Positions 36,722 to 53,751 of a stretch of DNA of 64,000 nt are shown one piece after another. Where the stretch lies: positions 558,001-622,000 of the forward strand of contig JAUICH010000001.1 in the NCBI GenBank assembly GCA_030427505.1, given 5' to 3'. The translations under genes were made by a program, and so were the position numbers. The stretch is from Verrucomicrobiia bacterium. GTDB taxonomy: Bacteria; Verrucomicrobiota; Verrucomicrobiia; Verrucomicrobiales; DEV007. The stretch's first letter is position 1. Each line of letters begins with the position of its first letter. The notes below the pieces were generated by a model. The model saw nothing but the letters and a program-made list of their open reading frames with translations. It was not told the origin of the DNA and did not search any database.

Positions 36722-36737
36722 GAAATATAGTTTTCTC

Positions 36738-37376
36738 CTAGTCCCAGATGAGCACGCGGACGGGCGTGGGATTGTAAGCGTTGCAGGGATTGTTGAGTTG
36801 AGGGCAGTTGCTGATGAGGCAGATGACGTCCATTTCCGCCTTGAGTTCCACATAGCGTCCGGGGGCGGAGATGCCGTCTTCGAAGGTGAGCTTGCCCTCC
36901 GGAGTGACGGGCACGTTCATGAAGAAGTTGATATTGCAGGTGATGTCCCGCTTGCCCAGGAAGCCGTCGCCCCACTCGGTTACGCCGCAGAGGAAGCTGT
37001 CCCGGCAGGCGTGCATGTACTCCTTTTCCAGCGCATAGCGCATGGTATTGCTCTCGCGGGAACAGGCGCCGCCCAGGGTGTCGTGCCGGCCGCAGGTGTC
37101 GGCCACAATGGTAAGCAGCGCATTTCCGCCCGAGGAAATGAGCTGAGTTCCCGTGGTCAGGTAGAGATTGGCCTGGTTGCGAATGGTGTCGCAGGCGCTG
37201 TAGCGGTCCTCTGGGTGGTGCGCATTGTAGAAAAGCGTGTCCGCCGCCTGGTTCCCCTCCAGGTCCACAATGCGGAGGGTCTGGCCCTGAGCGACCTGGT
37301 GAATCCAGTGGTCGCCCGCCAGGACGGTGGCGTCATAGATCGCGTTGGCGGGATCGAGTGAACTTTCCGTAAGCAT
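36738..37376 (-). CDS. DUF1989 protein, carboxyguanidine deiminase subunit (urea carboxylase-associated protein 2)
   Basis: A 212-residue protein beginning [21 protein letters not shown]. Conserved family motifs are [19 protein letters not shown], the metal-type segment [18 protein letters not shown] with Cys/His residues, and [21 protein letters not shown]1989 pairs of this kind were once called urea carboxylase-associated proteins and are now known in several bacteria as carboxyguanidine deiminase, converting carboxyguanidine to allophanate and ammonia. It lies 16 bases upstream of the carboxylase. The frame continues upstream but the ATG at 37376 fits the family. Confidence 0.88.
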
Positions 37377-37422
37377 GGGTGGCGAAAGACAGGCGGTGGT
37401 GAAGAGCTGAGCGGGAGGCCGT

Positions 37423-38175
37423 TCAGTCCCGCAGGCGGTAATAATTTTCCGTGTTGGTGAAGGCGCGTTCGTTCTCCGGACGAGACAGGCGGCAGGCATC
37501 GTCCGGGCCGGGCGGCTCGGTTTGAAAGGCCGTCAACCTCACGGGTTTCGGCGCGTAGTCTGGTGAGGGGTCCAGCGGGTGCTGGCAGGGAGTCAGCACG
37601 ACCAGCGTGTTCATTTCAAAACGGAGATCCACGTAGGACCCAGTGGGTGAAGCGCCCGGCACGTAGGTCAGGTTTCCTTCTTCGTCGGAGATGACCTTGC
37701 TGAAGAGGTTCAGGTTGGGCACCAGGTCGCGTTTTCCCAGGCCCCACTTCGCCAGCTCGATGAGGAAGTTATCGTGAGCGTTCCGGTAAAAGTCGTTGCG
37801 GGCTTCCTGGTAGGTCTTGGTCCCGTACTTTGCCGCTACCTGGGCGGCGTCCGTGCAGCCGCAGACCGTGTCGTGCCAGCCGCAGGTGTCCGCCGTGATG
37901 GAGCAGAACAGACGGCCCATGTCCGAGTGGATGCAGAAGGGAGCGGTCAGGAAAAAGATGTGCTGGCCCTTCAGCGTGTCCGGCATGTTGTACCGCTCCA
38001 CCAACTGATCCGCATTGTAGAGAAGCATGGAAACGTTGGCGCCGCCTTCCAAGTCGGTGAGACGAAGCGTCTTACCGCGCTTGATCACCTGGGACCACAT
38101 GCCGCCCCCGCGAATCACAGTCTCGTAGAGAACCGGCGGGGTGACGGAATCGGGGGTGGTGGAACCTTCAGCCAT
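37423..38175 (-). CDS. DUF1989 protein, carboxyguanidine deiminase subunit (urea carboxylase-associated protein 1)
   Basis: A 250-residue paralogue of the next gene, with [38 protein letters not shown], the Cys/His segment [17 protein letters not shown], and [18 protein letters not shown]. Both subunits are needed for deiminase activity in characterised systems. It starts 6 bases after the NikR-like gene and ends 46 bases before its partner, so regulator, both deiminase subunits, carboxylase and hydrolase form one five-gene unit. Confidence 0.88.
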
Positions 38176-38181
38176 GGAGCT

Positions 38182-38628
38182 TTAGTGGGGCGAATTTGGC
38201 AGCGGGTGGATGGGCGGCAGGATGCTCGGCGACATGGTGAGGCGCCCGGACTTGATGCCCTTGCAGGTGATGAGACGGTCCGCGATGCGCTTCAGCCGGC
38301 GGGCCGGACCCTGGACGATCAGGATCTCCATCGTCTGGTTTTTCTCCAGCAGCACATGCTGAGAGCTGATGACTTCGTCGATGTAGCTGCGCTGGATGGA
38401 GGCCAGCTCCGCGAGGAGACCCGGTTTTGACTCGTCATAGAACAGCGTGATGGTCCCAGCCATGAGCTCGGCGCCGCGTTCTTTGTAGTGTTCCAGGAGA
38501 CTGTTATTGATCATCTCCGCGATGGCCTGGGAGCGGTTGGTGAAGCCCCGGGCGCGGACGAGGTTGTCGAGTTCCCGGTAAACTTCTTCGGGCAAGGAGA
38601 TGCTGATACGATGGACACCAGATGGCAC
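38182..38628 (-). CDS. NikR-like ribbon-helix-helix regulator lacking most nickel ligands
   Basis: A 148-residue repressor with the NikR layout. The N-terminal ribbon-helix-helix (VHRISISLPEEVYRELDNLV, GFTNRSQAIAEMI) is followed by an ACT-like metal domain (about 55-135: GTITLFYDES, EILIVQGPARRLKRIADRLI, KGIKSGRLTM). Ungapped alignment to E. coli NikR puts R80 at nickel ligand His76, H91 at His87 (kept), L93 at His89 and T99 at Cys95. Three of the four high-affinity nickel ligands are therefore missing, so it probably responds to something else, perhaps a pathway metabolite. Start is GTG at 38628. A sigma-54-like site and a GC-rich dyad lie just upstream. Confidence 0.85.
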   Translation of the reverse strand: MPSGVHRISISLPEEVYRELDNLVRARGFTNRSQAIAEMINNSLLEHYKERGAELMAGTITLFYDESKPGLLAELASIQRSYIDEVISSQHVLLEKNQTMEILIVQGPARRLKRIADRLITCKGIKSGRLTMSPSILPPIHPLPNSPH

Positions 38629-38661: not shown

Positions 38662-38677
38662 AGCAGAACGGGTGCCA
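38662..38677 (-). promoter_or_regulatory. Sigma-54-type promoter of the guanidine/urea operon
   Basis: On the minus strand TGGCACCCGTTCTGCT matches the -24/-12 consensus TGGCAC-N5-TTGCW at all but one fixed position, with the required GG-N10-GC spacing and a following TTT. Transcription would begin near 38651, about 23 bases before the NikR-like start. Confidence 0.55.
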
Positions 38678-38689
38678 CCCGGGGGTGGC
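38674..38689. promoter_or_regulatory. GC-rich dyad overlapping the -24 element
   Basis: GCCACC-CGGG-GGTGGC is an inverted repeat with 6-base arms that covers the TGGC of the -24 box. A repressor bound here would block the promoter; the NikR-like product encoded just downstream is the natural candidate, though canonical NikR operators have a much wider spacer. Confidence 0.35.
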
Positions 38690-38713
38690 GTAATACTTTT
38701 AAAGAAAAAAATA

Positions 38714-39583
38714 TTACGAAAGCTGTGTCGCCGTCATACTGCTGCTGGTCCTGGCGGCAAACGCTTCACGCAATTCACCGGCCATCCAGCAGTTCACTTC
38801 CCAGAGATCCGCCACTGGCTCCTGGGTGTAGGGTTCCTGGTGGAGGTATCCGTCCGGACCAAATTCCGGGGTCATGGTGACAGACTCACGCCCACAGGCT
38901 TCCATAAAATTCCAAACGTGTTTCCACCAGCGGAAGTGGGCCTCCACTTCCGTGGCGTACTCCGGAGCGCGCGGGTCCGGCACCTGGGGGCCCTGGGCGT
39001 AGCCGATGCGGGCGTGAAGGTGCCGGCAGGCTTTCATGAAGAGATAGAAAAGATCCGGATCGTCGTTCAACACCAGGCGTTCCGACACACAGCACCAGTG
39101 GCTGAAATCGCAGTTTAATTTCAAACCCGGCAGGTAGCGTAGCAATTCGGCGGTTTGCCAGGGCGTGTAGGTCGAACGGCTGCGGTGGGTCTCCACCGTG
39201 ATGGTCAGGTCATACTGATCCTGAAGTTCCAGGACCTTTTCAAAATAGGTGACCTGCTTTGTCATCGGCCAGGCATCCAGGCCGGTCATCGTGTTAATAA
39301 AGAGAGGGTCCAGGGACAGGCTGCGTTCGATGCCTTTCCGCAGATCGTCCAAGTGGCGGGATGGGTCCAGGGTGGGATCCGGCACGTAGTCGCCGCCAGT
39401 CACCACTTCCGCGATGTATTCCAGACCGTTTTCTTTCAGGTCGGCGTCGAAGGCGTTCCGGTCGGACTTCGACTTGGGTGGCGGTCCTTCAATTCCGGAG
39501 AAGGAAGCTTCCGCGGCTTGTCGAACGGCCTCGCGCAGGGTGCCTTGGTGACCCCACAGGGGTTTGAAGAGCTTGAGTATCAC
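38714..39583 (-). CDS. Sugar-phosphate isomerase/epimerase-like TIM-barrel protein
   Basis: A 289-residue xylose-isomerase-like barrel: MILKLFKPLWGHQGTLREAV, FSGIEGPPP, LTITVETHRSR (metal Glu and His), LKLNCDFSHWCCVSERL (metal Asp/His), HLHARIGYAQGPQV (metal His) and MTPEFGPDGY (metal Glu). These metal ligands are characteristic of the AP-endonuclease-2-like isomerase/epimerase superfamily (Hyi, IolE, IolI). The substrate is unknown. Start is GTG at 39583. It ends 85 bases before the NikR-like gene, so the sigma-54 promoter separates it from the guanidine operon. Confidence 0.8.
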   Translation of the reverse strand: MILKLFKPLWGHQGTLREAVRQAAEASFSGIEGPPPKSKSDRNAFDADLKENGLEYIAEVVTGGDYVPDPTLDPSRHLDDLRKGIERSLSLDPLFINTMTGLDAWPMTKQVTYFEKVLELQDQYDLTITVETHRSRSTYTPWQTAELLRYLPGLKLNCDFSHWCCVSERLVLNDDPDLFYLFMKACRHLHARIGYAQGPQVPDPRAPEYATEVEAHFRWWKHVWNFMEACGRESVTMTPEFGPDGYLHQEPYTQEPVADLWEVNCWMAGELREAFAARTSSSMTATQLS

Positions 39584-39605
39584 GGGCGTAGGTGCTGAAG
39601 GTCGA

Positions 39606-40301
39606 TTACCGCAGTTTGCGGACCACTCGGAATCCTAAGTTGTCTCTTTGTGAGGAAATCGGCAGGCCGTCCCGCCAGGAGCTTCTTAGTAACCTGGGCA
39701 TGTAGTCCCAGGCGCCACCGCGGACCGCGCGGCGGGCCGGGTCGGGAGCAGTACCGGGAAGGTAATCTTTGCGCCAGACGTCGGCGGTCCATTCGCAGAC
39801 CGATCCGTGCATGTCGCAGAGCCCGAAGGCATTGGGCGGAAAAGAGCCGACGGGCTCCAGGTGGCGCGAACCGAGACGCTCGGCCTGTTCGCCGTAGTAA
39901 AAGCTGGCCTGGTCCGGCGAAATAATGGAGCCCGTGGAGAAGATAGTGTCCTGACTGCCGGCACGGCAGGCATACTCCCACTCGGCTTCCGTGGGAAGCT
40001 GCCAGAGATCGCCGGTGCCTTGGGAGAGGGCTTCGCAGAAGCGGATCGCTTCGTTCCACGAAATGTGGACTTTGGGTAGATTTGCAAGAGCACTCTGGAA
40101 TGCGTTGCAGTTCCCCATGACGGCGTCCCATTCTTCGTTTGTGATGGGGCAGCGGGACATCTCGAAAGAATCGGGAATCACCACCTCGTGACGGGGAAGT
40201 TCAGTCGCGTTCGCAAATTTGTCGTCTGGCACGGCTCCCATCAGGAAGGCGCCTGCCGGAATGGCGACCGTCGTAGGAACGCGGAGAGCGGTGGCGTTCA
40301 T
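39606..40301 (-). CDS. SUMF1/formylglycine-generating-enzyme-fold protein without active-site Cys pair
   Basis: A 231-residue protein with an FGE-sulfatase (C-type-lectin-like) fold: IPAGAFLMGAVPDD, PRHEVVIPDSFEMSRCPITNEEW, WNEAIRFCEAL, WQLPTEAEWEYACRAG, NAFGLCDMHGSVCEWTADVW, RAVRGGAWDYMP and the ending LGFRVVRKL. In true formylglycine-generating enzymes two copper-binding cysteines lie before the final GFR; here that stretch is RSSWRDGLPISSQRDNLGFR and has none. It is therefore not expected to oxidise sulfatase cysteines; EgtB-like or purely binding roles are possible. It overlaps the deacetylase gene by 4 bases. Confidence 0.8.
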   Translation of the reverse strand: MNATALRVPTTVAIPAGAFLMGAVPDDKFANATELPRHEVVIPDSFEMSRCPITNEEWDAVMGNCNAFQSALANLPKVHISWNEAIRFCEALSQGTGDLWQLPTEAEWEYACRAGSQDTIFSTGSIISPDQASFYYGEQAERLGSRHLEPVGSFPPNAFGLCDMHGSVCEWTADVWRKDYLPGTAPDPARRAVRGGAWDYMPRLLRSSWRDGLPISSQRDNLGFRVVRKLR

Positions 40302-41164
40302 GCGGGCAGGGCGTCAAAATTGATCTCGTGGCGGGCTTCGGGGTTGGTGAGGACGTAGTCCGCCAGGCTTTCGCCGCGGGCGAACCAGGCGTCACCTTCA
40401 TCGAGAATTTCACCGATGAGGCGTTCCAGCAGGCGGACGCGGGAAGGCCGGCCGCTGAGCCAGGGGTGGAGGGTGAGGACGAAGCAGCAACCGAAGTCCC
40501 GCATGGCTTCGTATTCGCGGTGCCAGAGGGTGTAAACCTTGTCGCAATCCTCCGGCAGGACGCCCCAGGCGGGGTCCGCGTTGAAGGCGAACTGTTCCCA
40601 ATCTTCCAGCATCCAGTTCCCCGGGATCTCGACCAGGCCATTGGGGTGAACGAAGGGCACGTCATCCCCCATCTGGCTGGCGTTGTAGCGGAAGCCGCGA
40701 GACTTGAGGAGATCGGCCGTGCCGGGGTTGTTTTCGAACCACGGAGCGCGAAATCCGGTGGGTCGATAGCCCACGACGCGTTCCAGGATTTCGAGGCTTT
40801 GATCGAGGACTTCGGCTTCTCGCTCGGGCGTGAGCGTGTTGAGTTTTTCGTGAAGATGACCGTGGGAACCGAGTTCGTGTCCGCCCTCGAGTATCGCTTC
40901 GGTCATCTTCGGATGTTGTTCAACAATGTAGGAGGGAACAAAAAAGGTGGCGGGGACGGAAAGATGGTCGAGGAGACCCAGCAACCGGGGAACCCCCACG
41001 TTGGGGCCATACTCGCACTGAGACATGGTGGTGACGCGGCTGGCGAGCTCGAGGTCTTCAGAAAGGGCGGTGGTTTCGCCATCGACATCGAAACAGAGCA
41101 TAACGGCGCATTTCTTGCCGTGAGGCCATTGGTAACGGGCGGGTGGAGCGAAAGCTGTTCTCAT
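40298..41164 (-). CDS. Polysaccharide deacetylase-family (PuuE-like) amidohydrolase
   Basis: A 288-residue NodB-type metal hydrolase. Motifs: CAVMLCFDVDGETTALS (catalytic and metal Asp), GHELGSHGHLHEKL (metal His pair), YRPTGFRAPWFENNPG (third motif) and VLTLHPWLSGRP (catalytic His). The FDVDGE variant and the length match the cytoplasmic PuuE allantoinase-like branch rather than exported chitin deacetylases, so a ureide or amide substrate would fit the cluster; this is inference. ATG at 41164 is preferred to an in-frame start 54 bases upstream that would add a hydrophobic leader. The SUMF1 gene overlaps its stop by 4 bases. Confidence 0.82.
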   Translation of the reverse strand: MRTAFAPPARYQWPHGKKCAVMLCFDVDGETTALSEDLELASRVTTMSQCEYGPNVGVPRLLGLLDHLSVPATFFVPSYIVEQHPKMTEAILEGGHELGSHGHLHEKLNTLTPEREAEVLDQSLEILERVVGYRPTGFRAPWFENNPGTADLLKSRGFRYNASQMGDDVPFVHPNGLVEIPGNWMLEDWEQFAFNADPAWGVLPEDCDKVYTLWHREYEAMRDFGCCFVLTLHPWLSGRPSRVRLLERLIGEILDEGDAWFARGESLADYVLTNPEARHEINFDALPA

Positions 41165-41205
41165 GAAATTTGTTAGCAAAGTGAAAAGAAGCAGGAAGCA
41201 GCAGA

Positions 41206-41991
41206 TCAGGATTTCCATTCGCCACCGCTGATGTTGGGTGGAGTGACGACGTCCAGGCGTTCCCAGCCGGCGGAGATGCCGCCGTCCACGCTGAGAACCG
41301 CGCCAGTGATGTAGGAAGCTTCCGGTGACGCCAGGAAGTGGAAAGCGGCGGCGATCTCTTCCGGTTCGGCGAGACGGCCCAGCGGGGTGCGGGACTCGAC
41401 AAACGGGATCTCGGGATTGTCGGGAATCTCGAGCACGGCGGGCGTGCGGGCCGTATTGGGGCAGACGCAGTTGACCGTGATCTGACGGGGCGCCAGCTCC
41501 AGCGCGGCGAGCTTGGTCAGGTGAACCACGGCGGCCTTGGTGCTGGCGTAGATGGCGGCGTTTGGCACGCCAGTGAGACCGACGTAGGAACTGGTATTCA
41601 GGATGCGGCCGCCAGTAGTGAGGAGCCGCGAGGCATGCTTAATACCATAAGCCGTGCCGAATACGTTCACCTGGTAGGACTTTTCCAGAAGCGCGGGCGT
41701 GAGGTCTTCAAAGCGGACGCCCAGGGGCTGGATGGCGGCGTTGTTCACCACGATGTCCAGGCCGCCGAGTTGTTGTTTGGCCTGATCGAAAGCGTCGCTG
41801 AGGCAGGCTTCTTTGCTGACGTCGGTGCGGATGTGGGAAAGCGAAAAGCCGTCTTCCTCCGTCTCCGGTGGAGATTGCAGATCGAGCGAAATGACCCGGG
41901 CGCCCGCCGCCAGAAAGCGGCGGCAGATGGCGAGTCCAATGCCGGAGCTGCCGCCGGTGACGACGGCAGCTCTGTCTTTTAAGCTGAACAT
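41206..41991 (-). CDS. Short-chain dehydrogenase/reductase
   Basis: A 261-residue classical SDR: cofactor motif VVTGGSSGIGLAICRRF, structural NNAA (IVVNNAAIQPLGV), catalytic Ser and Tyr-x3-Lys in LNTSSYVGLTGVPNAAIYAST-K (quoted in parts), and VNCVCPNTARTP. An Asp at the end of beta-2 (VISLDLQS) indicates NAD preference. The substrate is unknown; context suggests oxidation of an intermediate released by the Rieske enzyme. It lies 16 bases downstream of that gene. Confidence 0.85.
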   Translation of the reverse strand: MFSLKDRAAVVTGGSSGIGLAICRRFLAAGARVISLDLQSPPETEEDGFSLSHIRTDVSKEACLSDAFDQAKQQLGGLDIVVNNAAIQPLGVRFEDLTPALLEKSYQVNVFGTAYGIKHASRLLTTGGRILNTSSYVGLTGVPNAAIYASTKAAVVHLTKLAALELAPRQITVNCVCPNTARTPAVLEIPDNPEIPFVESRTPLGRLAEPEEIAAAFHFLASPEASYITGAVLSVDGGISAGWERLDVVTPPNISGGEWKS

Positions 41992-42007
41992 AGGTGGATA
42001 CGAATGT

Positions 42008-43360
42008 TCAGCGTTGGCCAGGGGCGGCGGGACGATCGAAGGTGGGCCAGGTGCCACGGGAACGGGCGGCCAGGTAGCGCTGGATGAGCCAGATGGGCAT
42101 TTCCAGGTGGCTCAGGCGGCCCCGCTGGTACCCGCTGGCATAGAAGCCGCGCTGCACGGCGGTGCAGACTTCCATGTCTTCCAGGTGAAACTCGATGGCC
42201 TGCTTCCGGCCCTTCTCCAGCATGGCGGAATAATCCGCATGCTTGGGTGTGGAGGGCGGGACGAGCAAGGTAGTCAGGAGCTTCATCCGATTCGGACCCA
42301 GGGGCTGGGTGCGGTACCAGATGGCGCAGTCCGGCGCGACGAGGAACTTGAAGGTGGGGAAGCCCAGGAAGAGGCCCCACTCATACCGCTCCTCGCCTTC
42401 CAGCCCAGCGATGGGGGGAAAGGTGTCCCACTGTTCGCCCCGGGATTCCATGTCGCGGATCTGGTTGCGGATGCCCTCTTTCAGCGGCAGGTGACAGCGG
42501 ATGAAGTGCGGCTGTTCTGGCTCCGTCCACGTGTCCTTGGCGGGCATCATGGGCTGGAGCGTCTTGGCGTGGGCCCCGGCGTGGTGGTAGGACTCCATGA
42601 AGTTTTCCGTGAGCACCTTCCAGTTGAAGGGGCAGTCCCATTCATTGGCGATGATCATTTCCATCTCCGCGAGGTTCCACTTGGCGATGTAGTCGCCGAG
42701 CCCCTTGTATTGTTCCGCCACGGTGTAAGGCGCGTCACCGTCCAGGTTCACGAAGATGAAGCCGTGCCAGATTTCGCTGCGGAAAGGCTTCAGGGTCCAG
42801 TCGTCGCGGTTGAAGCCTTCGGCCTGCTGCATTTCGGCGCAGGCCTTGAGGCGGCCATCCAGCTCGAAGGTCCAGAAGTGGTAAGGGCAGAGCAGCAGGC
42901 GGGTATTGCCGCAGCCGGGCTTACCATCTTTGGGATCGGCGGGGCTGTGGCCGTCGTAGCCGAAACCGGGCGGCATGATGTCCATGGCGCGGTGGGGGCA
43001 GACGCGCGAGAGGACGCGAATGTCGTTGCCCTTGTCGCGGATGACGATGAGCGGTTCGCCCAGCAGATCGAGGTTCAGGAAGTCGCCCGCGTTGGGAATC
43101 TGGGAGACGTGCCCCAGGCAGAGCCATTCTTTCCGGAAGATGTTTTCCACCTCCCAGTTGAAGAAGGCCTGCGAGGTGTAGGCCTGGGCGGGGAGCGTGG
43201 TGCTTTCGCCCATGGGCAGGTCCGCCACGCGAGCGATCTCGTCTAGGATGGTTTCCACCGGCAGATCCGGCTGCGCGCCCGTTGAGGCGGGGGAGAGTGC
43301 CGATGAGGCAAAGGGATCCGCGGATCCGGCACAGGCTTGGCGGATCATGGTTTCAGTCAT
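42008..43360 (-). CDS. Rieske non-heme iron oxygenase, alpha subunit
   Basis: A 450-residue oxygenase. The Rieske centre is CPHR ... CPYH, but the two halves are separated by 34 residues, about twice the usual 15-17, owing to a Gly/Asp-rich insert (GYDGHSPADPKDGKPGCGNT). The catalytic domain has NWKVLTENFMESYHHAGAH, containing the bridging acid and the H-x4-H iron ligands, and the third ligand region FHLEDMEVCTAVQRG. It is related to the choline, carnitine and N-demethylating monooxygenases, so oxidative N-demethylation is a reasonable guess. No reductase gene is adjacent. The start is uncertain: ATGs at 43369 and 43360 and an earlier TTG or GTG are all in frame. Confidence 0.85.
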   Translation of the reverse strand: MTETMIRQACAGSADPFASSALSPASTGAQPDLPVETILDEIARVADLPMGESTTLPAQAYTSQAFFNWEVENIFRKEWLCLGHVSQIPNAGDFLNLDLLGEPLIVIRDKGNDIRVLSRVCPHRAMDIMPPGFGYDGHSPADPKDGKPGCGNTRLLLCPYHFWTFELDGRLKACAEMQQAEGFNRDDWTLKPFRSEIWHGFIFVNLDGDAPYTVAEQYKGLGDYIAKWNLAEMEMIIANEWDCPFNWKVLTENFMESYHHAGAHAKTLQPMMPAKDTWTEPEQPHFIRCHLPLKEGIRNQIRDMESRGEQWDTFPPIAGLEGEERYEWGLFLGFPTFKFLVAPDCAIWYRTQPLGPNRMKLLTTLLVPPSTPKHADYSAMLEKGRKQAIEFHLEDMEVCTAVQRGFYASGYQRGRLSHLEMPIWLIQRYLAARSRGTWPTFDRPAAPGQR

Positions 43361-43666
43361 GTTGACCATATGAAAAATCAGGAATGATAACGATTGCAAA
43401 AACAGGTTAGGAAAAACGTTAGTTTCGCGCCTCGCGAAACCGTGGGAGAGCGGCATGACCCCGCCGCCGGAGGGTGTGTGGAGCCGAGGTTGCGACAGGA
43501 GACGAGATCAATCGTCCACTGCGCCGAGCCGCGCTCTGTTCAGGGGCGGCAGCCTAAAAAGACAAAAGAACAAAGCGTCACCCCGAGCGTTCTCAGGGTT
43601 TGCTTGTTCTGGGTGTGGGAGGAGAGGCGAAGGCGTTTCACGCTGTAACCTGAGAGGTGGAAAAAC
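43361..43666. other. 306-base gap between binding protein 2 and the Rieske gene
   Basis: No convincing gene. On the minus strand this is the downstream region of binding protein 2 and the leader of the Rieske gene. An AGGGTGTGTGGAG at about 43471 recalls the terminus of the 213-bp repeat, but nothing else of it is present. No -24/-12 site was found here. Confidence 0.5.
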
Positions 43667-44938
43667 TTACTTCCCGTAACCGCTTTCCGCCAGCTTCTTC
43701 ATGGGACCGAAAGCGATTCCCGCGTTGGGCGGATAGGTTTCTTTGACCATGCCGAACTTGACCCACCATTCGTTGGTCAGCTTCCAGTGGTCCTTGATCT
43801 GGCCATTCTTCCCGATGGGCGGCTCGCCTTCCGCGACCCCCATGAAGGCGGAGGACTCCGGCCAGCCGAAAACGTAAAGGCCGCCGTCTTTCGGACCGCC
43901 AGTGTCACCGATGACGGACACCACGTCCGCGACCTCGAACTTGATGGCGTCGGCGATGATCTTATTGGCTTCAGCGGAGTGTTCTTTCCAGTAAGCCACG
44001 GCATCGAAGTAGGCTTTCATGACCTTCATCGCGAGCTGAGGTTTCTTCTTGAGGAAGTCGCCGCTCATATACATGCCGTCGGCCAGCAGACCGGTACTGA
44101 GGTAGTAGTCGTCCTTGGAAGTGGAAACGATCTTCGAGCCTTCCAGGGTCTCAATGACCTGAGTGCCAAAGGGTTCCCAGAATTCGCCGCCCGCCACGGA
44201 GCCGCTGACCATGGCCGCCACGGCGTCGTCCATGATGACATTGGTGTAGGTGACGTCGTCAAACTTCAGACCGTTCTGTTCCAGCCAGATGCCCATGTAG
44301 ATCTGGGTGAGGCCGCCTTCCAGAACGGCGACGCTCTTTCCTTTCAGATCCGTGGCGGCTTCCACGCCAGGGCCGAGGATGATCTTGTCCGTGCCATAGG
44401 AAGCGTTCGTGTAAGCGACCAGCTTGACCGGGACGCCGGAGTCGGCGGCGATGGGGCCGTATTCCACCGTGCTGGACGTCACGTCCAACTGACCGGCGGC
44501 CATCTGGCCAAAGCTTTCATAGGGGTCTTCGATGATCTGGATATCCAGTTCGAAGCCATCCGTCAGGCCCCTTTCCTTCGCCACAAACCAGAAGCCATAG
44601 CCTGGCCAGGAAAAGAGAGACACTTTCACCACCTCCATTTCTTTCGGCGCCGCCGGTGGTGGTGGCGGAGGAGGCGTCGCGGGAGCCGCGGCGGGTTCCG
44701 GATCCGGCATGGGTGCGGGCTCCGCCTTGGTTTCTTCAGGGGCCGGTTCTGGCTCGGGTTCGGGAGTCGGCGCCGGTTCCGCGGGAGGTGCTTTGGGTGC
44801 TGCCGGTGTCTCTTCCGCCGGCGGGGCGGACGGTTCGTCTGCCGGTTTTTCCGAGCAACTCGGAAGCGTGAGCAGACCAAGAGAAAGGCCTAACAGGGCT
44901 CCGGCGGCGCGGAAGGAGAGAGGAAGGAGTGGCTTCAT
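43667..44938 (-). CDS. ABC transporter substrate-binding lipoprotein 2 (NMT1/nitrate-taurine type)
   Basis: A 423-residue exported protein. The signal peptide ends in a good lipobox (LTLPSC, Cys about residue 28), followed by a ~70-residue Pro/Glu/Ala linker ending in PPPPPPPAAPKEMEVVKVSL. The periplasmic-binding domain (about 100-420) has SLFSWPGYGFWFVAKERGL, AAGQLDVTSSTVEYGPIAAD, KSVAVLEGGL and a two-lobe pattern of the NMT1/SsuA/TauA group. The long linker suggests a binding domain tethered well off the membrane. It is followed downstream by the Rieske gene and preceded by its own sigma-54-like site. Confidence 0.88.
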   Translation of the reverse strand: MKPLLPLSFRAAGALLGLSLGLLTLPSCSEKPADEPSAPPAEETPAAPKAPPAEPAPTPEPEPEPAPEETKAEPAPMPDPEPAAAPATPPPPPPPAAPKEMEVVKVSLFSWPGYGFWFVAKERGLTDGFELDIQIIEDPYESFGQMAAGQLDVTSSTVEYGPIAADSGVPVKLVAYTNASYGTDKIILGPGVEAATDLKGKSVAVLEGGLTQIYMGIWLEQNGLKFDDVTYTNVIMDDAVAAMVSGSVAGGEFWEPFGTQVIETLEGSKIVSTSKDDYYLSTGLLADGMYMSGDFLKKKPQLAMKVMKAYFDAVAYWKEHSAEANKIIADAIKFEVADVVSVIGDTGGPKDGGLYVFGWPESSAFMGVAEGEPPIGKNGQIKDHWKLTNEWWVKFGMVKETYPPNAGIAFGPMKKLAESGYGK

Positions 44939-44978
44939 GATTTGGGCGGAGACTCCGGGTGACTTAGGGTAGGATGGC

Positions 44979-44994
44979 AGCTTAATTCATGCCA
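44979..44994 (-). promoter_or_regulatory. Sigma-54-type promoter of binding protein 2
   Basis: On the minus strand TGGCATGAATTAAGCT has the GG-N10-GC core and full TGGCAYG -24 box; the -12 box (AAGCT) is weaker. Predicted start near 44968, about 30 bases before the ATG at 44938. Confidence 0.45.
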
Positions 44995-45196
44995 CGGAAG
45001 GTAGGTGAGGGCGCGTGGAGAAGCGGGGCGATTACGATGCAAGTGCGTTCGTATGCAGGTGACCTTGCCGAGGATTGGAAGAACGCTGACGATGAGAATA
45101 AGCGCTTTCTATACCCGCCGCGCCTCCGGCTCCTGCCTCAAAGAGGCAAAAGCTTATTTACCGCACTTTGGAGAGGCTTTGCCTCCCCGTTTGGTT

Positions 45197-45994
45197 TTAG
45201 GTTTCCTTTCCGGTCCTCAGATAAGGAAAGGCCCACCAGCGGAGGCCTCGGAGGAGGAGGTCCAAGACGAAGCCGAGCACGCCGATGACGAGGATGCCGG
45301 CCATGATGTCGTCCACGCGGACGAAGCGCTTCGCCCGCATCATCATGGCGCCGATGCCGTCGGTGGCGGCGACGATTTCCGCGATGACGAGGTAAGTCCA
45401 ACTGACGGCGAGCATCTGGCGGAGGGTGTCGAGATACTGGGGCAGGGCAGAGCGGAAGATGACGGAGCGAAGAATCTGCGCCGGTTTCGCGCCGAGGGTC
45501 TGGGCGGTCTCGATCAGCTCTATTCGCACCGCTTTCGTGTTGTCCATGAGGAGGGTGATGAGGAACCAGATCACGCCGAGAAAGAGGAGGGCAATTTTCT
45601 GATTCTCGCCAGTGCCCAGCCACATAAGGAGCAATGGCACGAAAGACGGAGCCGGAAGATAACGGAAGGGGGAGACCAGCGGGTTGATGAAATTTTCCGC
45701 CACGGAGAAAGACCCCATGAGAATACCGAGCGGCAGAGCCACGGCGGTCGCGATGAGGAAACTGAGCAGCACACGGTTCAGGCTTTTAAGCACGTCTTTG
45801 GCGAAGCCGTGTTCCGCGAAGAGTTCGGCCAGTGCCCGGCATACCGCCAAAGGGGAAGGCAGCAGGCGGGGGTTCGCCCAGCCGCTAACGGCCAGGCTGT
45901 GCCATATCGCGAAGAACAGCACCCAGGCACCGGCCGCGAGGCCAATCTTCCAGCCGGGCGAGAGGCTGCCGCGAAGCTGGAAGGGCCGGGACAC
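45197..45994 (-). CDS. ABC transporter permease 2
   Basis: A 265-residue inner-membrane permease of the nitrate/sulfonate/taurine type with about six membrane segments. The EAA loop is ETAQTLGAKPAQILRSVIF (Gly at the conserved position), preceded by FRYLPAPSFVPLLLMWLGTGENQK. The start is uncertain: GTG at 45994 avoids a long overlap with the upstream AhpD-like gene, but the frame is open to 46102. No ATPase gene is adjacent, so it probably uses the one at 48877-49788. Confidence 0.82.
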   Translation of the reverse strand: MSRPFQLRGSLSPGWKIGLAAGAWVLFFAIWHSLAVSGWANPRLLPSPLAVCRALAELFAEHGFAKDVLKSLNRVLLSFLIATAVALPLGILMGSFSVAENFINPLVSPFRYLPAPSFVPLLLMWLGTGENQKIALLFLGVIWFLITLLMDNTKAVRIELIETAQTLGAKPAQILRSVIFRSALPQYLDTLRQMLAVSWTYLVIAEIVAATDGIGAMMMRAKRFVRVDDIMAGILVIGVLGFVLDLLLRGLRWWAFPYLRTGKET

Positions 45995-46025
45995 GGTGTG
46001 GCGGGACTTGGCGGACGGGGCGTCG

Positions 46026-46589
46026 TCAGTTGACAGGCGGTTTTTCCCAAGCCAGTGACGCCACGGCGCTGTCCAGCGGCGTGTGGGCGATGCCGTTGGC
46101 ATAGTTGCTCATCAGTTTGGTGGCCAGGCCGAGGACCACTTCCAGGGCCTGGGGGGCGGTGTAACCCGCTTCGAAGAATCGTTGAGTGAATTCCTCCGGT
46201 GGGTGGCCCCGGTGGTCGATCAGTGCCTTGGTGAAAAGACGCAGGGCTTCCAGCTTGGGATCGGACAAGGGTGTGCCAGCCCGCAGCGCGGTATTGTCTT
46301 CTTCTTTCATCCCGGCCTTCTGGCTGAGAAAGCTGTGCCAGGGGACGCAGTAGGTGCAGTTATTCTCAAAGTTCGCGGTCTGGTAGACGACCTGTTTTTC
46401 GACGCCATTGAAGCTGGAATTTTCAAACAGCTCCCAGAGCCGGACATAGCCCGCGAGGGCCGGTGGCGAGGCGGACAGCATGCGCTCCAAGTTGGGAATC
46501 ATGCCGAAGTCCGCCTCCACTTCCTCCAGGAGCGGAAGCGACGCGGCAGGCGCGGAGGCCTTTTCGAGTAGGGGAAAGTCCTGGCCCAT
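46026..46589 (-). CDS. AhpD/carboxymuconolactone decarboxylase-family protein
   Basis: A 187-residue helical protein with the AhpD-type active site: EKQVVYQTANFENNCTYCVPWHS contains E-N-N-C-x2-C-x3-H (quoted core ENNCTYCVPWH), the redox-active CxxC plus His. Such proteins are peroxidases or decarboxylase-like and often accompany oxygenases, so it may protect against peroxide from the Rieske reaction; inference. It lies 6 bases after the glutamine-synthetase-like gene in the same unit. Confidence 0.82.
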   Translation of the reverse strand: MGQDFPLLEKASAPAASLPLLEEVEADFGMIPNLERMLSASPPALAGYVRLWELFENSSFNGVEKQVVYQTANFENNCTYCVPWHSFLSQKAGMKEEDNTALRAGTPLSDPKLEALRLFTKALIDHRGHPPEEFTQRFFEAGYTAPQALEVVLGLATKLMSNYANGIAHTPLDSAVASLAWEKPPVN

Positions 46590-46595
46590 CGGTGC

Positions 46596-48017
46596 TTAGA
46601 TGAAGGTCAGCCGCTCGTCGAGCTGGCGGTCGTGAATGGTGTAGAACTCTTTTTCCCACTCCATGGTCTTCTGGCGGAGATAGATGTCTTTCATTGCTCC
46701 GAATACTTCCGTGGCGAGATCGTCGGCTTCGAAAGCCTCGATGGCGTGCAGCAAGGTGCCGGGCAGGAACTCGATGCCTGCTTCCCGGATCTGCTTCTTG
46801 CCCTTGAGGTAGAGGTTGTCGTTGAGCGGTTCACCGGGGTCGAGTTCCTGTTCGATGCCCTCCAGGCCGGCGGCGAGGTGAAAGGCGGCGGCGAGGTAAG
46901 GGTTCACGCTCATGTCCGGCGCGCGGTTCTCCAGGCAGTAGCGGTTGAGCGGCATGCGCATCATGGCGGAGCGGTTGTTCTTGCCGTAGGCGACGAGGAC
47001 CGGCGCCCAACTGACGTCCAGCATCTCGCCCTGAGCCACGAAGCCCTGGTAGCTGTTGTAGGTCGGCGAGGTAACGGCGGTGATGGCCTTGGCGTGTTTC
47101 AAGACCCCTGCCGCGAAGTGATAAGCCTGTTTCGACATGGGGATGCCGTATTTCTCCATGAAGGGGTTTCCTCCCGGCTCCGGCGCGAAGAGGTTGTCTC
47201 CCGAGGCGTTGTCCTGGAGCGACATGTTGAAGTGGCACCCGGAGCGGAAGTCGTCGGCAAAGGGCTTCGGCATGAAGCTGGCAATGCAGCCGATGGATTC
47301 CGCGATCTTCTTCGCCATGAGACGGATGAAGATGAGCCGGTCCGACATGCTGAGCGCGTCCGCGTAGTTGAAGTCCAGCTCGTACTGACCGTGCCCGCCT
47401 TCCTGGTCGAAGGAAAACACGCCCCAGCCGAGTTCGTTCATGGCATCCACCATGGGTTCGAGGAATTCCATGGACCCCATGGACTGGTAAACATCATAAG
47501 CCGGGCAGATGCCGCCGAAGCGGTGGGGCGAAAGGATGGAGCGCTTCCCGGTTTCCGGATCGACGCGGAAGATGTAGAACTCCGTCTCCATGCCGACGTT
47601 GAAGGTCATGCCCAAGTCAGCGGCGCGAGCGACCTGGCGCTTCAGGACCTGGCGGCTGTCGTTGGGGTAGGGTTCGCCGTGGTAGTAGAGGTCGCCGAAG
47701 AAGTAGGCGAAGCGCTTGTCCCAGGGGCAGATGAGGGCGGTATCCAGATCAGGCACGGAGGCGCACTCGTCTTCCTGCGGTCCCACCAGGCCCATGCCCT
47801 CCATGGCGCCCACGGTGAAAAGTTCCGAGCCAGCGGCCATTTTCCCGAGGTATTCCAGCGGGTTTACCTTGGCCTTCGGTACGCCGTGGACATCCACATA
47901 GGTGGAAAGGGCATACTTCACGCCCTGTTCGCCCAGGCTTTTCTTCAGGCTTTCCACTTTGGAATCGTCCACGCTGAAATCGGCGGGAACGGCAAAGACG
48001 GGTTTGGCGGTGCTCAT
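46596..48017 (-). CDS. Glutamine-synthetase-like ligase (GlnT/glutamate-amine ligase type)
   Basis: A 473-residue GS-fold enzyme. Conserved elements: VKYALSTYVDVHGVPKAK, MGMETEFYIF-like metal motif (GMETEFYIF), WGVFSFDQEGGHGQYELDF, ASFMPKPF, RSGCHFNMSL (ATP/metal His), NNRSAMMRMP (Arg flap) and SVNPYLAAAFHLAAGLEG. These resemble the type III/GlnT branch, which includes glutamate-methylamine ligase and other gamma-glutamyl-amine ligases, more than house-keeping GlnA; the adenylylation Tyr region is absent. Likely role: ligation of an amine or ammonia released by the pathway to glutamate. The substrate is unproven. Confidence 0.82.
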   Translation of the reverse strand: MSTAKPVFAVPADFSVDDSKVESLKKSLGEQGVKYALSTYVDVHGVPKAKVNPLEYLGKMAAGSELFTVGAMEGMGLVGPQEDECASVPDLDTALICPWDKRFAYFFGDLYYHGEPYPNDSRQVLKRQVARAADLGMTFNVGMETEFYIFRVDPETGKRSILSPHRFGGICPAYDVYQSMGSMEFLEPMVDAMNELGWGVFSFDQEGGHGQYELDFNYADALSMSDRLIFIRLMAKKIAESIGCIASFMPKPFADDFRSGCHFNMSLQDNASGDNLFAPEPGGNPFMEKYGIPMSKQAYHFAAGVLKHAKAITAVTSPTYNSYQGFVAQGEMLDVSWAPVLVAYGKNNRSAMMRMPLNRYCLENRAPDMSVNPYLAAAFHLAAGLEGIEQELDPGEPLNDNLYLKGKKQIREAGIEFLPGTLLHAIEAFEADDLATEVFGAMKDIYLRQKTMEWEKEFYTIHDRQLDERLTFI

Positions 48018-48056
48018 ATTCGTTGGGGAGGAAGAAGATCCAGATTGAGTAGAATG

Positions 48057-48860
48057 TTAGTGTTTACCGAGAGGGGCCGGCGAAAGGCCGTTCCAGTGTT
48101 CTTCAGAAAGGGGTGGCATCTCGGTGAGAGCCTTCCGGCAGAGGGCGGCGAGCGCCTCGCCCATTTCGCGGAAGAGGGACTGGCCGCGCTCGACGGTGCC
48201 GGCGCTTGGCTTGCCGGTGATGCCGTTCAGGCTGGTCTGGGCGACGGGATAGCTGAAGACCGTGCCGTCCGTGCGATCAGGATCGTCTTCCACCAAGTCC
48301 ATGCGCACTGTGTCGGGAGCCAGGTAGAGCATGAGGTCCGTCTCCGCTTGGTTGGCGTGGATGTCGTCCCCATCGCAGAGAAAGTAGCTCAAGATATCTG
48401 GGGTCAGGGAGAAGCTGTTGCGGACACCGATCTGCAATTTTCCCAGGAACTCCAGGCGGAGTTGATCCACCGCGACACGTAGAGAGGCGTCGTTTCCAAA
48501 ATGGGAATTAATGATGAACAGCTTTTCCCAGCCCGTGGCTACGGCCCAGGAGACGAGTTCCCGCACAGAGGCGATGAAGGTCTGGTGCGAAAGCGAAAAA
48601 GTCCCCGGCCACTTCGTGGTGTGCCCGGCGGATACCGTGTAGGGCATGGCGGGGAGCATGGGAATACCGGTCTGAGCGGAGGCGTAGGCCACGACTTGGT
48701 CCGCGATGACGGTGTCCGTATTGATGGGCAAATGCGGACCGTGCTGTTCCGTCGCTCCCGTGGGTAGGAGCAGCATGCGGGGGCCGTTTTCCTGGAGATT
48801 GGCGATGGTCTTCCAGCTCAACTCCTCCAGGCGCAATGCCTTCTCAACCTCCGGAAGCAT
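48057..48860 (-). CDS. Creatininase-family amidohydrolase
   Basis: A 267-residue metal hydrolase of the creatininase / FAPy-deformylase family. Motifs: LPTGATEQHGPHLPINTDTVIAD (quoted core GATEQHGPHLPINTD with metal Glu, His and Asp), IINSHFGND (metal His; the common form is NGHGGN) and DIHANQAETDLMLYL (metal Glu). The family opens cyclic amides such as creatinine, or removes formyl groups. The G-to-F change in the NSHFGN loop hints at altered specificity. It lies 40 bases upstream of the GS-like gene, and just downstream of the importer ATPase. Confidence 0.85.
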   Translation of the reverse strand: MLPEVEKALRLEELSWKTIANLQENGPRMLLLPTGATEQHGPHLPINTDTVIADQVVAYASAQTGIPMLPAMPYTVSAGHTTKWPGTFSLSHQTFIASVRELVSWAVATGWEKLFIINSHFGNDASLRVAVDQLRLEFLGKLQIGVRNSFSLTPDILSYFLCDGDDIHANQAETDLMLYLAPDTVRMDLVEDDPDRTDGTVFSYPVAQTSLNGITGKPSAGTVERGQSLFREMGEALAALCRKALTEMPPLSEEHWNGLSPAPLGKH

Positions 48861-48876
48861 TGGTTAACGGGAAGGT

Positions 48877-49788
<912 letters not shown>

Positions 49789-49819
49789 GCTGAGAAAAGG
49801 TTAGAGCTACGCCGGGTAA

Positions 49820-51295
49820 TCAGGAAGAGACGTGCTTCGGCGGTGGCGAGCTGTCTCCCGGGCGAGCAGTGGAGGCGGACGTGACGGGACGGGGCTCCGG
49901 ATTGTCCGTCACGCGCTCCCGCGCCGCGTTCATGAGGAAGCGGGGGAACCACAGCACCGCATTTGCCACGGCGCGGGACTTCCCGCCTTTATCCCCGTGA
50001 GCCCAGGGGAAAAAGATGTGGCTGAGCCAGGCGAGGATCTGGTCCGTGAAGAAACCGACCAGCCCGATAAGGATGATGATGGGATAGACGCGGTCGAAGT
50101 TCCGCCAGCGGCCCTGCGTTTCGATGAACTCCGTGAGGCCGCTTTTCACCCCAATGAGTTCGGCGATGACCAGCCAGGTCCAGGCCCAGCCGAGTAGGAT
50201 GCGGAGGTCATTGTAAACATTCGGCATGATGCCGGGGATGACGACCTTGGTCAGGAGCTGGCGCTGGTTTGCGCCCAGAGTCTGGGCGGCTTCCAAGAGA
50301 GAGACATCGATCAACTTCGTAGTCTTGGACAGCACCAGCACCATCTGGAAAACCGTACCGATAACGACGAGCGCAATCTTGGGCGCGTCGTTGGCGAGGA
50401 AGAGCGCCACCAGCAGCGTGCTGAAGGTGGGCGCCGGCATGTAGCGGAAGAAGTCGATGAACGGCTCAAAAATACGAGAGAAGAACTGGTAGGTCCCGCA
50501 AAGCACCCCAATAGGAATGCCGATGAGGCAAGAGATGAGAAACCCGCCGAAGACGATCGTCATGGAATGCCACAGGCGATCCGCCATGGTGGGTTGACCG
50601 TCATCCACGGGGCGGGCGAATTCTTTCCAGCCATTCAGCAGGACGGCGTGGGGCTCGGGGAGATAGTCCGGGTTGGACGGTCTTCCCTGGGGGATCATCT
50701 GGACGAGCGGCTGGTCCGGAAAGTTGTCGCTGTCATAAGTGAGCGACTTCGCGGACATGACGGCCCAGTTTTCCTGGGCGATGGAGACGTTTTCCTTCGT
50801 GATCGGAGGGTCCGTCGCGACTTTCTCGCCCGTGGCGAGGTCTCGCCAGATCTCATAGATGGCCGCGTCATCCTCCGCCTGATCGCCACTGAGCCAACCA
50901 TTGGCGATGGCGATGGGCGCAATCTGGCGGAGATACTTCTTGTTCGCCCGCCGGCGGCCGGACTCCGTCCCTTCCCACTCGCCACCCGACTGAATCAATT
51001 GACGGGTCTGATCGTTCTGGCGCCGGATGCCTTCCTGAAATTCCGAGAAGTAGTCTTTCCCCACATGATCGCCTGGGGTGAAGACGGTATTCACGTCCGT
51101 GCGGTTGGCGGCAATTTCGAGCCGCACGTCCGGGTGCCAGATGAAAGGGCAGTAGCTGACCAGGCACCAAATACCCAGAGGCAGGAGGAAAGAGACGAGC
51201 GTCAGGAGAGACGCGCGGCGAGCTCCCAGGTCGCGACGGACGGCGAACCAGGGCTCACGCGGCTTTTTCTGCTGACTCGATTTTCCGAAGATCAC
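49820..51295 (-). CDS. ABC transporter permease 1 with large periplasmic insert
   Basis: A 491-residue permease, nearly twice the usual 250-280. After the first membrane segment (about 28-50) there is a hydrophilic region of about 190 residues (about 52-240, for example NRTDVNTVFTPGDHVGKDYF and GWLSGDQAEDDAAIYEIW) likely in the periplasm. Then five further segments with the EAA loop EAAQTLGANQRQLLTKVVI follow, preceded by DFFRYMPAPTFSTLLVALFL. A cytoplasmic Pro/Ser-rich tail closes it. Start is GTG at 51295. It probably forms the channel with permease 2 or as a homodimer. Confidence 0.88.
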   Translation of the reverse strand: MIFGKSSQQKKPREPWFAVRRDLGARRASLLTLVSFLLPLGIWCLVSYCPFIWHPDVRLEIAANRTDVNTVFTPGDHVGKDYFSEFQEGIRRQNDQTRQLIQSGGEWEGTESGRRRANKKYLRQIAPIAIANGWLSGDQAEDDAAIYEIWRDLATGEKVATDPPITKENVSIAQENWAVMSAKSLTYDSDNFPDQPLVQMIPQGRPSNPDYLPEPHAVLLNGWKEFARPVDDGQPTMADRLWHSMTIVFGGFLISCLIGIPIGVLCGTYQFFSRIFEPFIDFFRYMPAPTFSTLLVALFLANDAPKIALVVIGTVFQMVLVLSKTTKLIDVSLLEAAQTLGANQRQLLTKVVIPGIMPNVYNDLRILLGWAWTWLVIAELIGVKSGLTEFIETQGRWRNFDRVYPIIILIGLVGFFTDQILAWLSHIFFPWAHGDKGGKSRAVANAVLWFPRFLMNAARERVTDNPEPRPVTSASTARPGDSSPPPKHVSS

Positions 51296-51469
51296 GGCCC
51301 GGTGGTTCTACCTGGACCCGGAATGGACCGGAAAACCAGGCGGTGGATAAAGGCAGCGCCGGAAACGTTTTCCTCTATGAGAGGACCCCGTCGCCGGCGC
51401 TACAAATTCAGAATCGGTTTAAAGATGGTGAAATGTCGCGCCAGTGGAGGCACTGGGCGGTTGGCGTCA

Positions 51470-52468
51470 TCATTCGCCTTTCAGTTCCGCCGCGACTTCC
51501 TCGGTCAGGCTGGGATCGAAATATTTGTCGATGTCCGCCGGCTTTTCGTAGACCTCGTACTTCACGTTGAACTCGTCAGAGATTACGGAAGATCCATAGA
51601 CGGAGCCGAGGCCTTCGCCTTTTTCCCAGCGTTCCAGCGCTTCATCCAGTTTCAGGATGTAGGTGCCTTCCAGGAAGGGCTCATACTCCGCGGGCGTGAG
51701 GTTCACGCGGGCGGCCATGATTTCGAGGCATTCGTCGAGGTTGTCCTCATCCTTCAGGTATTCGACCATCTTGTACCAGACCTTCACGACCTTCTTCCAG
51801 TCGTCGCGGCGCTTTTCGAGGCTCTCCGGGTCCACGAAGAGGATGTCGTAAATCAGACCCGCGGCGTCCGCCGAAGTGTAGATGGTCTTGGATCCGTCCA
51901 CGATTTTCAGCGTCTGACCGGAGCTGGGCTGCCAGCAGGCCACGCCCTGCACGGCGCCGGACTTCAGCACTTGGGGTGTTTCACCGTTGGGCGTGTTCAC
52001 CAGTTCGATGTCGTCTTCCGTCATGCCACTGGACTCGAGTGCCTTCAGGACGAGGAGGTGGCTCACGAAACCGACTTCCACGCCGACCTTCTTACCCTTC
52101 ATGTCCTTCACGCTTTCGATGCCGGGCGCGGCGATGAACATGTCGTTCCCATTGGAGTAGTCATTGATGAGAATGCCGATGGAAGGCTTACCCGTGACAC
52201 CGATGACGAGGGCGTCGCCATTGGTCATGTGCACGCCGTCCAGGCCGCCGGCGGCGTAGGTGTCCATGGACTCCACATAATCCATCCACTGAAATTCGAC
52301 TTCCACGCCGGCCTCTTTGAACCAGCCCTTCTTGATGGCGATCTCCCACGGAACCCAGCCGGGCCAGTCGCTGTAAGCGATCTTCAGGGGCTCTGCCTGC
52401 AATGTCGAACCCAGCCCGAACAGCGTGGCCAACACCAGGAAGCAGCGTGTTTTGGTAACAGTTTTCAT
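51470..52468 (-). CDS. ABC transporter substrate-binding protein 1 (NMT1-like)
   Basis: A 332-residue periplasmic protein. Sec signal peptide (about 1-25, ending [10 protein letters not shown]) followed by [22 protein letters not shown], a motif of the NMT1/THI5-like and nitrate/taurine-binding proteins, [19 protein letters not shown] and [21 protein letters not shown]. It shares the SDWPG/SWPG opening with binding protein 2, indicating that the two descend from one ancestor and bind related ligands. ATG at 52468 is chosen over an in-frame GTG at 52489. It is the first gene of the minus-strand block. Confidence 0.88.
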
Positions 52469-52540
52469 TCGCGTTTTCGTATCTCCCACAGTTGGTTTCG
52501 TTTAGCCCGACACCTTCATCGAACCTTAGCTAACGCTTTG

Positions 52541-52556
52541 AGCACCAATCATGCCA
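52541..52556 (-). promoter_or_regulatory. Sigma-54-type promoter of the importer operon
   Basis: On the minus strand TGGCATGATTGGTGCT matches TGGCAYG-N4-TTGCW except one base, with GG-N10-GC spacing. Predicted start near 52530, about 62 bases before the binding-protein ATG. Confidence 0.5.
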
Positions 52557-52585: not shown

Positions 52586-52767
52586 TTGCGGTTCGAAAAC
52601 GTTGCCGGATTGGGTTTGTAAATGACTGGTTATAAGCTGCTTGCGAAGGTGCTTACCCGCTGGACTGCTTCATAATACCGGCCAGAATGGTTTCGGGTGT
52701 TGCTGGGCTCTGAAAGCCTTTCACCCGGCTTTGGACGTTCCCCTCCTTGTGTGAGAAATTCACCCCC

Positions 52768-53751
52768 ATGGGGAAGCCGCTTGTCGCCATTACCATGGGC
52801 GATCCCGCTGGGATCGGGCCGGAGGTCTGCCTGAGTCTTTTGGCAAATCAGGAGATTGCCGGATTCTGCGTGCCGGTGGTCTTTGGGGATGCGGCGGTCT
52901 TGCGGGCGGCGGCGGAAAAGACGGGGCTACCCTATACCGCGCCGGTCCGGGGCGATGACGACTGGCATACCCTGACCGAGCCGGGAGTCTGGGACATCGG
53001 GGCCATTCCGCTGGAGGCGTTCCGGCCGGGTGAGATCAGCGCGGCTACCGGCCACGCGGCCTATGCGTATGTGGACTGCGCCATCCAGGCTGTGCTGGCG
53101 GGTCAGGTGCGGGCCGTGACGACGGCGCCGCTAAGCAAGGAGGCGCTGAAGCTGGCGGGGATCGACTTTCCGGGGCACACGGAGATTTTTGCCACCCGCA
53201 CCGGCGCGGCGCGTTCCTGCATGATGCAATATTCCGGGGAGATCACCTGTACCTTCGTGACCGTGCATGTGGGCTATCGCGAGGTTCCGGGTCTGCTGAC
53301 GGTGGAACGGATCGGGGAGGTGATCGACCTGACGGCGGAAGCGCTGGAGCGGATTCGCGGGCGGAAGCCAAAGCTGGTGGTTTGCGGGCTGAATCCTCAC
53401 GCGGGCGAGCACGGACTCTTTGGAGACCGGGAAGAAGAACGCATCATCATTCCCGCCATCGAAGCGGCCCGGTCCCGGGGGCACGTCGTGGAGGGGCCCG
53501 TGCCGCCAGACACCGCGTTTCTGCCATGGAAGCGAAAGGAGACGGACGCCTTTGTCTGCATGTATCACGACCAGGGGCACATTCCGGTGAAAGCACTGGC
53601 TTTCGATTCCGCGGTGAACACCACCCTGGGACTGCCGGTGGTGCGGACCAGCGTGGATCACGGCACCGCGCTGGACATCGCCTGGCAGGGAAAAGCGCGG
53701 CCGGACAGCCTGTTTGCGGCGGTGAGGCTCGCGGTTAGGATGGCGGGTTAG
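52768..53751 (+). CDS. pdxA: 4-hydroxythreonine-4-phosphate dehydrogenase family (PdxA)
   Basis: A 327-residue enzyme of the PdxA family: VAITMGDPAGIGPEVCLSLL, the substrate/metal segment KEALKLAGIDFPGHTEIFA (His ligand), CGLNPHAGEHGLFG (metal His), PDTAFLPW and MYHDQGHIPVKALAF (metal His). PdxA oxidises 4-phosphohydroxythreonine in vitamin B6 synthesis; paralogues (PdxA2 type) serve tetronate or phthalate catabolism. The ATG at 52768 is preferred to an earlier in-frame start. It diverges from the importer operon across a 299-base region and ends in a terminator. Confidence 0.9.
   Translation: MGKPLVAITMGDPAGIGPEVCLSLLANQEIAGFCVPVVFGDAAVLRAAAEKTGLPYTAPVRGDDDWHTLTEPGVWDIGAIPLEAFRPGEISAATGHAAYAYVDCAIQAVLAGQVRAVTTAPLSKEALKLAGIDFPGHTEIFATRTGAARSCMMQYSGEITCTFVTVHVGYREVPGLLTVERIGEVIDLTAEALERIRGRKPKLVVCGLNPHAGEHGLFGDREEERIIIPAIEAARSRGHVVEGPVPPDTAFLPWKRKETDAFVCMYHDQGHIPVKALAFDSAVNTTLGLPVVRTSVDHGTALDIAWQGKARPDSLFAAVRLAVRMAG

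Follow-up and report, generated by a model that had tools for sequence, protein, structure and literature searches.

How a 21-kb gene cluster for scavenging guanidine and urea is transcribed in a member of the Verrucomicrobiales is the question raised by a 64,000-nucleotide (nt) stretch of the Verrucomicrobiia bacterium assembly GCA_030427505.1 (contig JAUICH010000001.1, positions 558,001 to 622,000; hereafter the window). Elements of one form, TGGCAY-N7-GCT, stand ahead of three of the cluster's genes (sites 1, 2, and 3; Table 1), and comparison of sequences indicates that they are very probably promoters of sigma-54 (RpoN). This reading follows from the finding that, in related genomes, the same signal still stands ahead of each transcription unit after gene order has changed. 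Taken singly, sites 1 and 3 are promoters with near certainty, while site 2 is a likely one.

All three sites lie on the minus strand at the coordinates originally reported, and their equal spacing was borne out: GG at −24 and GC at −12 form an identical GG-N10-GC in each. The genes behind each site are closely packed, running from the gene for binding protein 1 (BP1) to perm2 behind site 1, from that for binding protein 2 (BP2) to the TIM-barrel gene behind site 2, and from the NikR-like gene to the allophanate hydrolase gene behind site 3. The distance to the start codon is 72 bases for site 1 (BP1 ATG at 52468), 40 for site 2 (BP2 ATG at 44938), and 33 for site 3 (NikR-like GTG at 38628). 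The sites are the sole matches to TGGCAY-N7-GCT in the window, and all of them are non-coding, oriented toward the gene and 20–120 nt ahead of its start, a placement that a random site would have in about 1% of cases by a post hoc estimate. With a sigma-54 matrix drawn from the general consensus ahead of any look at the promoters of relatives, site 3 ranks first and site 1 second over both strands of the window. No sigma-70-like promoter was found in the region, where three would be expected by chance.

About 20 genomes of the family carry the cluster, as do further genomes outside it; the records are mostly labelled as Verrucomicrobiales or Verrucomicrobiia metagenome-assembled genomes, with isolates including Roseibacillus persicicus and Luteolibacter marinus. 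Of 36 distinct BP1 orthologues, searched from −250 to +30 for a matrix score of at least 11.5, 29 keep the site, as opposed to none on the opposite strand and none with the reversed matrix. The remaining seven BP1 genes are divergent (43–50% identity) and belong to clusters where the creatininase gene heads the unit, and four of these clusters (L155, L162, L174, L179) hold a good site 270–320 nt ahead of that gene. The signal therefore tracks the head of the unit rather than one particular gene, as a promoter should. Cluster genes other than BP1, NikR, BP2, perm2, and Rieske are preceded by a site in about 2% of cases, and at the threshold of the BP1 test none was found before the creatininase, SDR, CgdA, CgdB, and UCA genes. 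Ahead of the nikR-like gene, a GG-N10-GC site scoring at least 8 and lying at most 90 nt from the start occurs in 25 of 29 distinct relatives (0.48 expected from shuffles, none with the reversed matrix); this threshold was picked after inspection, and at 11.5 the site is found in 13 relatives against 0.02 expected. The middle site is weaker: its island TGGCAY...AAGCT is shared by the window, L074, L076, L077, and L078 amid flanks that cannot be aligned, while L075 and L079 retain TGGCACGG-N5-GCT with different bases ahead of GCT. Across L074–L079 this island precedes BP2, or the Rieske gene directly where BP2 is missing, and five other loci carry a site ahead of perm2, which there precedes BP2.

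The genome also encodes the machinery that such promoters need. One rpoN gene is present, with activator-interacting (AID), core-binding (CBD), and DNA-binding (DBD) domains, as well as seven full-length genes for AAA+ sigma-54 activators (PF00158). The initial annotation had proposed looking for both; together with the non-coding position of the sites and the orthologous sites at unit heads in dozens of relatives, their presence backs its sigma-54 reading. Furthermore, core nitrogen genes carry the same element. A near-consensus site, TGGCACGACTTTTGCA, lies ahead of the PII gene and has the highest score among the sites examined in the genome, and another, TGGCACGGCAATTGCT, stands 50 bases ahead of the gene for type III glutamine synthetase (GSIII). 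The PII gene is divergent from an NtrC-like activator gene, and in this genome and 22 relatives a sigma-54 site is found in 22 of 23 loci with PII beside an NtrC-like gene. The 22 loci with a site have the palindrome TGGTAA-N4-TTACCA in common, some 92 nt before the −24 T; its motif score is 146, as opposed to about 41 in shuffled sequence. In these PII/NtrC-like intergenic regions (L218–L247) of Verrucomicrobiales, it is probably where the NtrC-like activator binds. Given the PII and GSIII sites and the conservation at PII, sigma-54 control of core nitrogen genes can be read from sequence in this family. A further near-consensus site in the same genome, TGGCACGGCCATTGCT (C30, L254:4439-4454), is located upstream of a gene for a Gcw_chp/TorF-type outer-membrane protein.

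Several observations weigh against the sigma-54 reading. Three matches to TGGCAY-N7-GCT in the window compare with 1.03 expected from dinucleotide shuffles, of which 6 in 100 reach three, and genome-wide the pattern is not enriched (82 matches versus 118 for its reversed form), nor is the sharper TGGCAY-N6-TGCW (39 versus 48 reversed). Site 2 departs from the consensus at −12 (AAGC where TTGC is expected), and its score of 11.0 puts it at roughly tenth place in the window; the matrix weights are the authors' approximation of the published consensus rather than a published table; and the relatives, many of them metagenome-assembled, are not phylogenetically independent. Sites 1 and 2 lack the NikR-type dyad described below, which in the window stands only ahead of the nikR-like gene. 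A search upstream of BP1 yielded no activator-binding site; TGGTAA-N4-TTACCA is no better matched there than in shuffled sequence, and four genomes with the cluster (G012, G033, G035, G094) hold only 38–45% matches to the NtrC-like protein. The pattern was moreover defined only once the sites had been seen, and motif frequency alone is a weak argument, so that the rarity invoked in the initial annotation does not carry the case, which rests on position and conservation instead. That a short, post hoc motif common throughout the genome was shared by chance would account for these counts, but not for its retention ahead of both orthologous units and rearranged ones, where the opposite strand and the reversed matrix gave almost no sites, nor for the persistence of the middle-site island within unalignable flanks; for sites 1 and 3 the conservation refutes chance, which is very improbable overall. 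We give equally little credence to an ordinary transcription-factor operator. The missing activator site at BP1 would suit it, whereas the motif is directional and non-palindromic, carries the GG-N10-GC anchor of sigma-54, always points to the gene (0 of 36 BP1 cases on the opposite strand), recurs in the same form ahead of PII and GSIII, and has no sigma-70-like promoter nearby. Site 3 might also belong to a terminator hairpin (CGGGTGGCACCCG followed by TTCTGCTTTT) closing the upstream unit, as a terminator scan lists 38681–38669. Terminator-like matches in the region are, however, about as numerous as by chance (16 versus 13.7), and the flanking bases that would have to pair vary in relatives while GG-N10-GC stays, leaving this explanation scarcely probable.

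Within the sigma-54 reading, a narrower version assigns activation of the promoters to the NtrC-like protein whose gene adjoins that for PII, which would make them one classical Ntr regulon. The divergent gene arrangement, the conserved palindromic upstream site, and the protein's best NCBIfam match (ntrC, below cut-off) speak for it, but the lack of a better-than-shuffled palindrome at BP1 and the four genomes with only distant homologues make it rather unlikely. The claim that the importer, middle enzymes, and guanidine/urea operon form one regulon accordingly stands as far as the shared sigma-54 promoter type is concerned, but no common activator site was found. A GAF/PAS activator (L002) was rejected as a co-inherited partner, as a full-length relative occurs in only one other genome, and the best de novo palindromes upstream of BP1 were set aside because, in our reading of the flanks, they resemble conserved coding sequence of a neighboring gene. 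GCAAGC, mostly as AAAGCAAGC, lies 82–131 nt upstream of the BP1 site in 13 of 29 cases (2 expected), largely in one clade.

A probable second regulatory element adjoins site 3. The regulator encoded first in its unit has RHH_1 and NikR_C domains and passes one NCBIfam NikR cut-off (PRK04460). Of the nickel ligands of Escherichia coli NikR, H87 alone is kept, while H76, H89, and C95 are replaced, and none of 29 relatives of the protein keeps H89 or C95. An alignment to the PDB gives the same substitutions. With three of four ligands lost, annotation of this gene as nickel-responsive would probably mislead. Immediately ahead of site 3 is CGTAATA-N16-TATTACG, the sole perfect match in the 6.4-Mb genome and a probable NikR-type operator. 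Relatives carry GTAWTAC-N14-GTAWTAC just upstream of most nikR-like promoters or overlapping the −24 element, and 19 of 29 BP1 promoters have such a dyad, its GTAWTAC halves 14 or 15 nt apart and with no more than two mismatches, 22–42 nt downstream of the −24 T. Its position and co-occurrence with the gene predict that the dyad is bound by the NikR-like protein. The promoter account in the initial annotation is supported for the sigma-54 elements and had missed a probable operator beside or over such promoters. The operator of E. coli NikR is GTATGA-N16-TCATAC (PMC7055735). The two systems share the ribbon-helix-helix and NikR_C architecture and a dyad of the same spacing beside the promoter; they differ in the replaced equivalents of H76, H89, and C95, in the half-site GTAATA(C), and in the linkage to guanidine/urea genes.

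In the proposed mechanism, sigma-54 RNA polymerase would form a closed complex on GG at −24 and GC at −12, to be opened by an AAA+ enhancer-binding activator that presumably senses nitrogen limitation. Transcription from site 1 would then supply the importer, the creatininase homologue, and the glutamine-synthetase-like ligase, that from site 2 the Rieske/SDR/deacetylase unit, and that from site 3 the NikR-like protein together with carboxyguanidine deiminase, the carboxylase, and allophanate hydrolase. The NikR-like protein would bind the GTAWTAC dyad by site 3 and, in relatives, also the dyad that closely follows the BP1 promoter, and act as a repressor; when bound at BP1, it would prevent transcription start or promoter escape. 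It probably answers something other than nickel, and a guanidino compound is our guess. The cluster would thereby receive two inputs, nitrogen status via sigma-54 and substrate via the NikR-like protein. Tentatively, and at somewhat less than even chances, we propose that in Verrucomicrobiota a NikR paralogue without a nickel site acts as a small-molecule, perhaps guanidine, repressor at sigma-54 promoters, these two inputs taking the place of the guanidine riboswitches found in other systems.

The features of the cluster are collected in Table 1. In the window, homologues of creatininase, glutamine synthetase, Rieske oxygenase, SDR, deacetylase, and TIM-barrel proteins are joined to the guanidine carboxylase pathway (31266–52468), and the cluster may convert a larger guanidino compound into guanidine. 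A pdxA homologue (PF04166; plus strand, 52747–53751) is divergent from BP1, with site 1 inside the shared intergenic region. In L080, L082, L083, L085, and other g2 loci the cluster contains a second glutamine-synthetase-like gene of about 43% identity; several g2 loci also have a second Rieske gene there (about 46–50%). Both are absent from the window.

Table 1. Genes and predicted regulatory elements of the guanidine/urea cluster (window coordinates).
Feature	Position	Strand	Remarks
Site 1, putative −24/−12 element TGGCATGATTGGTGCT	52556-52541	minus	head of importer unit, BP1 to perm2
BP1, NMT1/SsuA-type binding protein	51470-52468	minus	nearest TIGR03427, below cut-off
perm1, ABC permease	49820-51295	minus	
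ABC ATPase	48877-49788	minus	
Creatininase-family hydrolase	48057-48860	minus	unit head in some relatives
Glutamine-synthetase-family ligase	46596-48017	minus	
Conserved 187-aa protein	46026-46589	minus	faint carboxymuconolactone-decarboxylase similarity
perm2, ABC permease	45197-46102	minus	
Site 2, putative weaker −24/−12 element TGGCATGAATTAAGCT	44994-44979	minus	head of middle-enzyme unit, BP2 to XylI (TIM barrel)
BP2, second NMT1-type binding protein	43667-44938	minus	
Rieske oxygenase alpha subunit	42008-43456	minus	
Short-chain dehydrogenase (SDR)	41206-42057	minus	
Polysaccharide-deacetylase-family hydrolase	40298-41218	minus	
FGE-sulfatase (formylglycine-generating-enzyme-like) domain protein	39606-40301	minus	
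Xylose-isomerase-like TIM-barrel protein	38714-39583	minus	
Probable NikR-type operator CGTAATA-N16-TATTACG	38689-38718		directly upstream of site 3
Site 3, putative −24/−12 element TGGCACCCGTTCTGCT	38677-38662	minus	head of nikR-like/CgdA/CgdB/UCA/AtzF unit
NikR-like ribbon-helix-helix regulator	38182-38628	minus	RHH_1 + NikR_C domains
CgdA-type (UAAP1) carboxyguanidine deiminase subunit	37423-38175	minus	TIGR03425 over cut-off
CgdB-type (UAAP2) carboxyguanidine deiminase subunit	36738-37499	minus	TIGR03424 over cut-off
Urea/guanidine carboxylase (UCA)	33101-36853	minus	TIGR02712 over cut-off
Allophanate hydrolase	31266-33104	minus	Amidase + AH_C

Sigma-54 promoters of nitrogen genes are of a known kind. 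For Proteobacteria, textbooks describe how sigma-54 governs nitrogen scavenging; for Verrucomicrobiota, to our knowledge, such control has been little described. With the Proteobacterial promoters of glnA, glnK-amtB, and urease, the system described here shares GG-N10-GC, rpoN, and AAA+ activators, the element on PII and glutamine synthetase genes, and its association with scavenging genes for alternative nitrogen sources. It differs in its host phylum, in the TGGCAYG-N5-TGCT form of the element, and in that the activator of the cluster is only presumed. According to a survey of 33 classes, the enrichment of sigma-54 at nitrogen genes is mostly a Proteobacterial trait that fades elsewhere, with Opitutia retaining a little (PMC12316311). 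Control by riboswitches is known for the guanidine carboxylase pathway (PMC11410670). Riboswitch-controlled CgdAB/carboxylase/AtzF operons comprise the same catabolic genes, whereas the cluster has a predicted sigma-54 promoter and NikR-like operator in the riboswitch's place, and Rfam matched no guanidine riboswitch in the window, nor in any of seven related loci. A search of the open-access literature, which lacks most subscription papers, turned up no guanidine/urea cluster that combines sigma-54 promoters with a NikR-like operator, and no paper on guanidine carboxylase with NikR, on guanidine with sigma-54, NtrC, and carboxylase, or on Verrucomicrobia with guanidine and urea carboxylase.

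For the family, these findings mean that sigma-54 nitrogen control is legible from sequence throughout, with PII and GSIII serving as internal controls. The cluster, with its Rieske oxygenase, creatininase homologue, glutamine-synthetase-like ligase, and two importers, would be tied to guanidine/urea breakdown and to nitrogen limitation, which suggests a condition under which its substrate may be sought. The NikR-like protein, in turn, is a candidate, open to test, for the sensing of guanidino compounds by a protein, a task for which riboswitches have been known so far.

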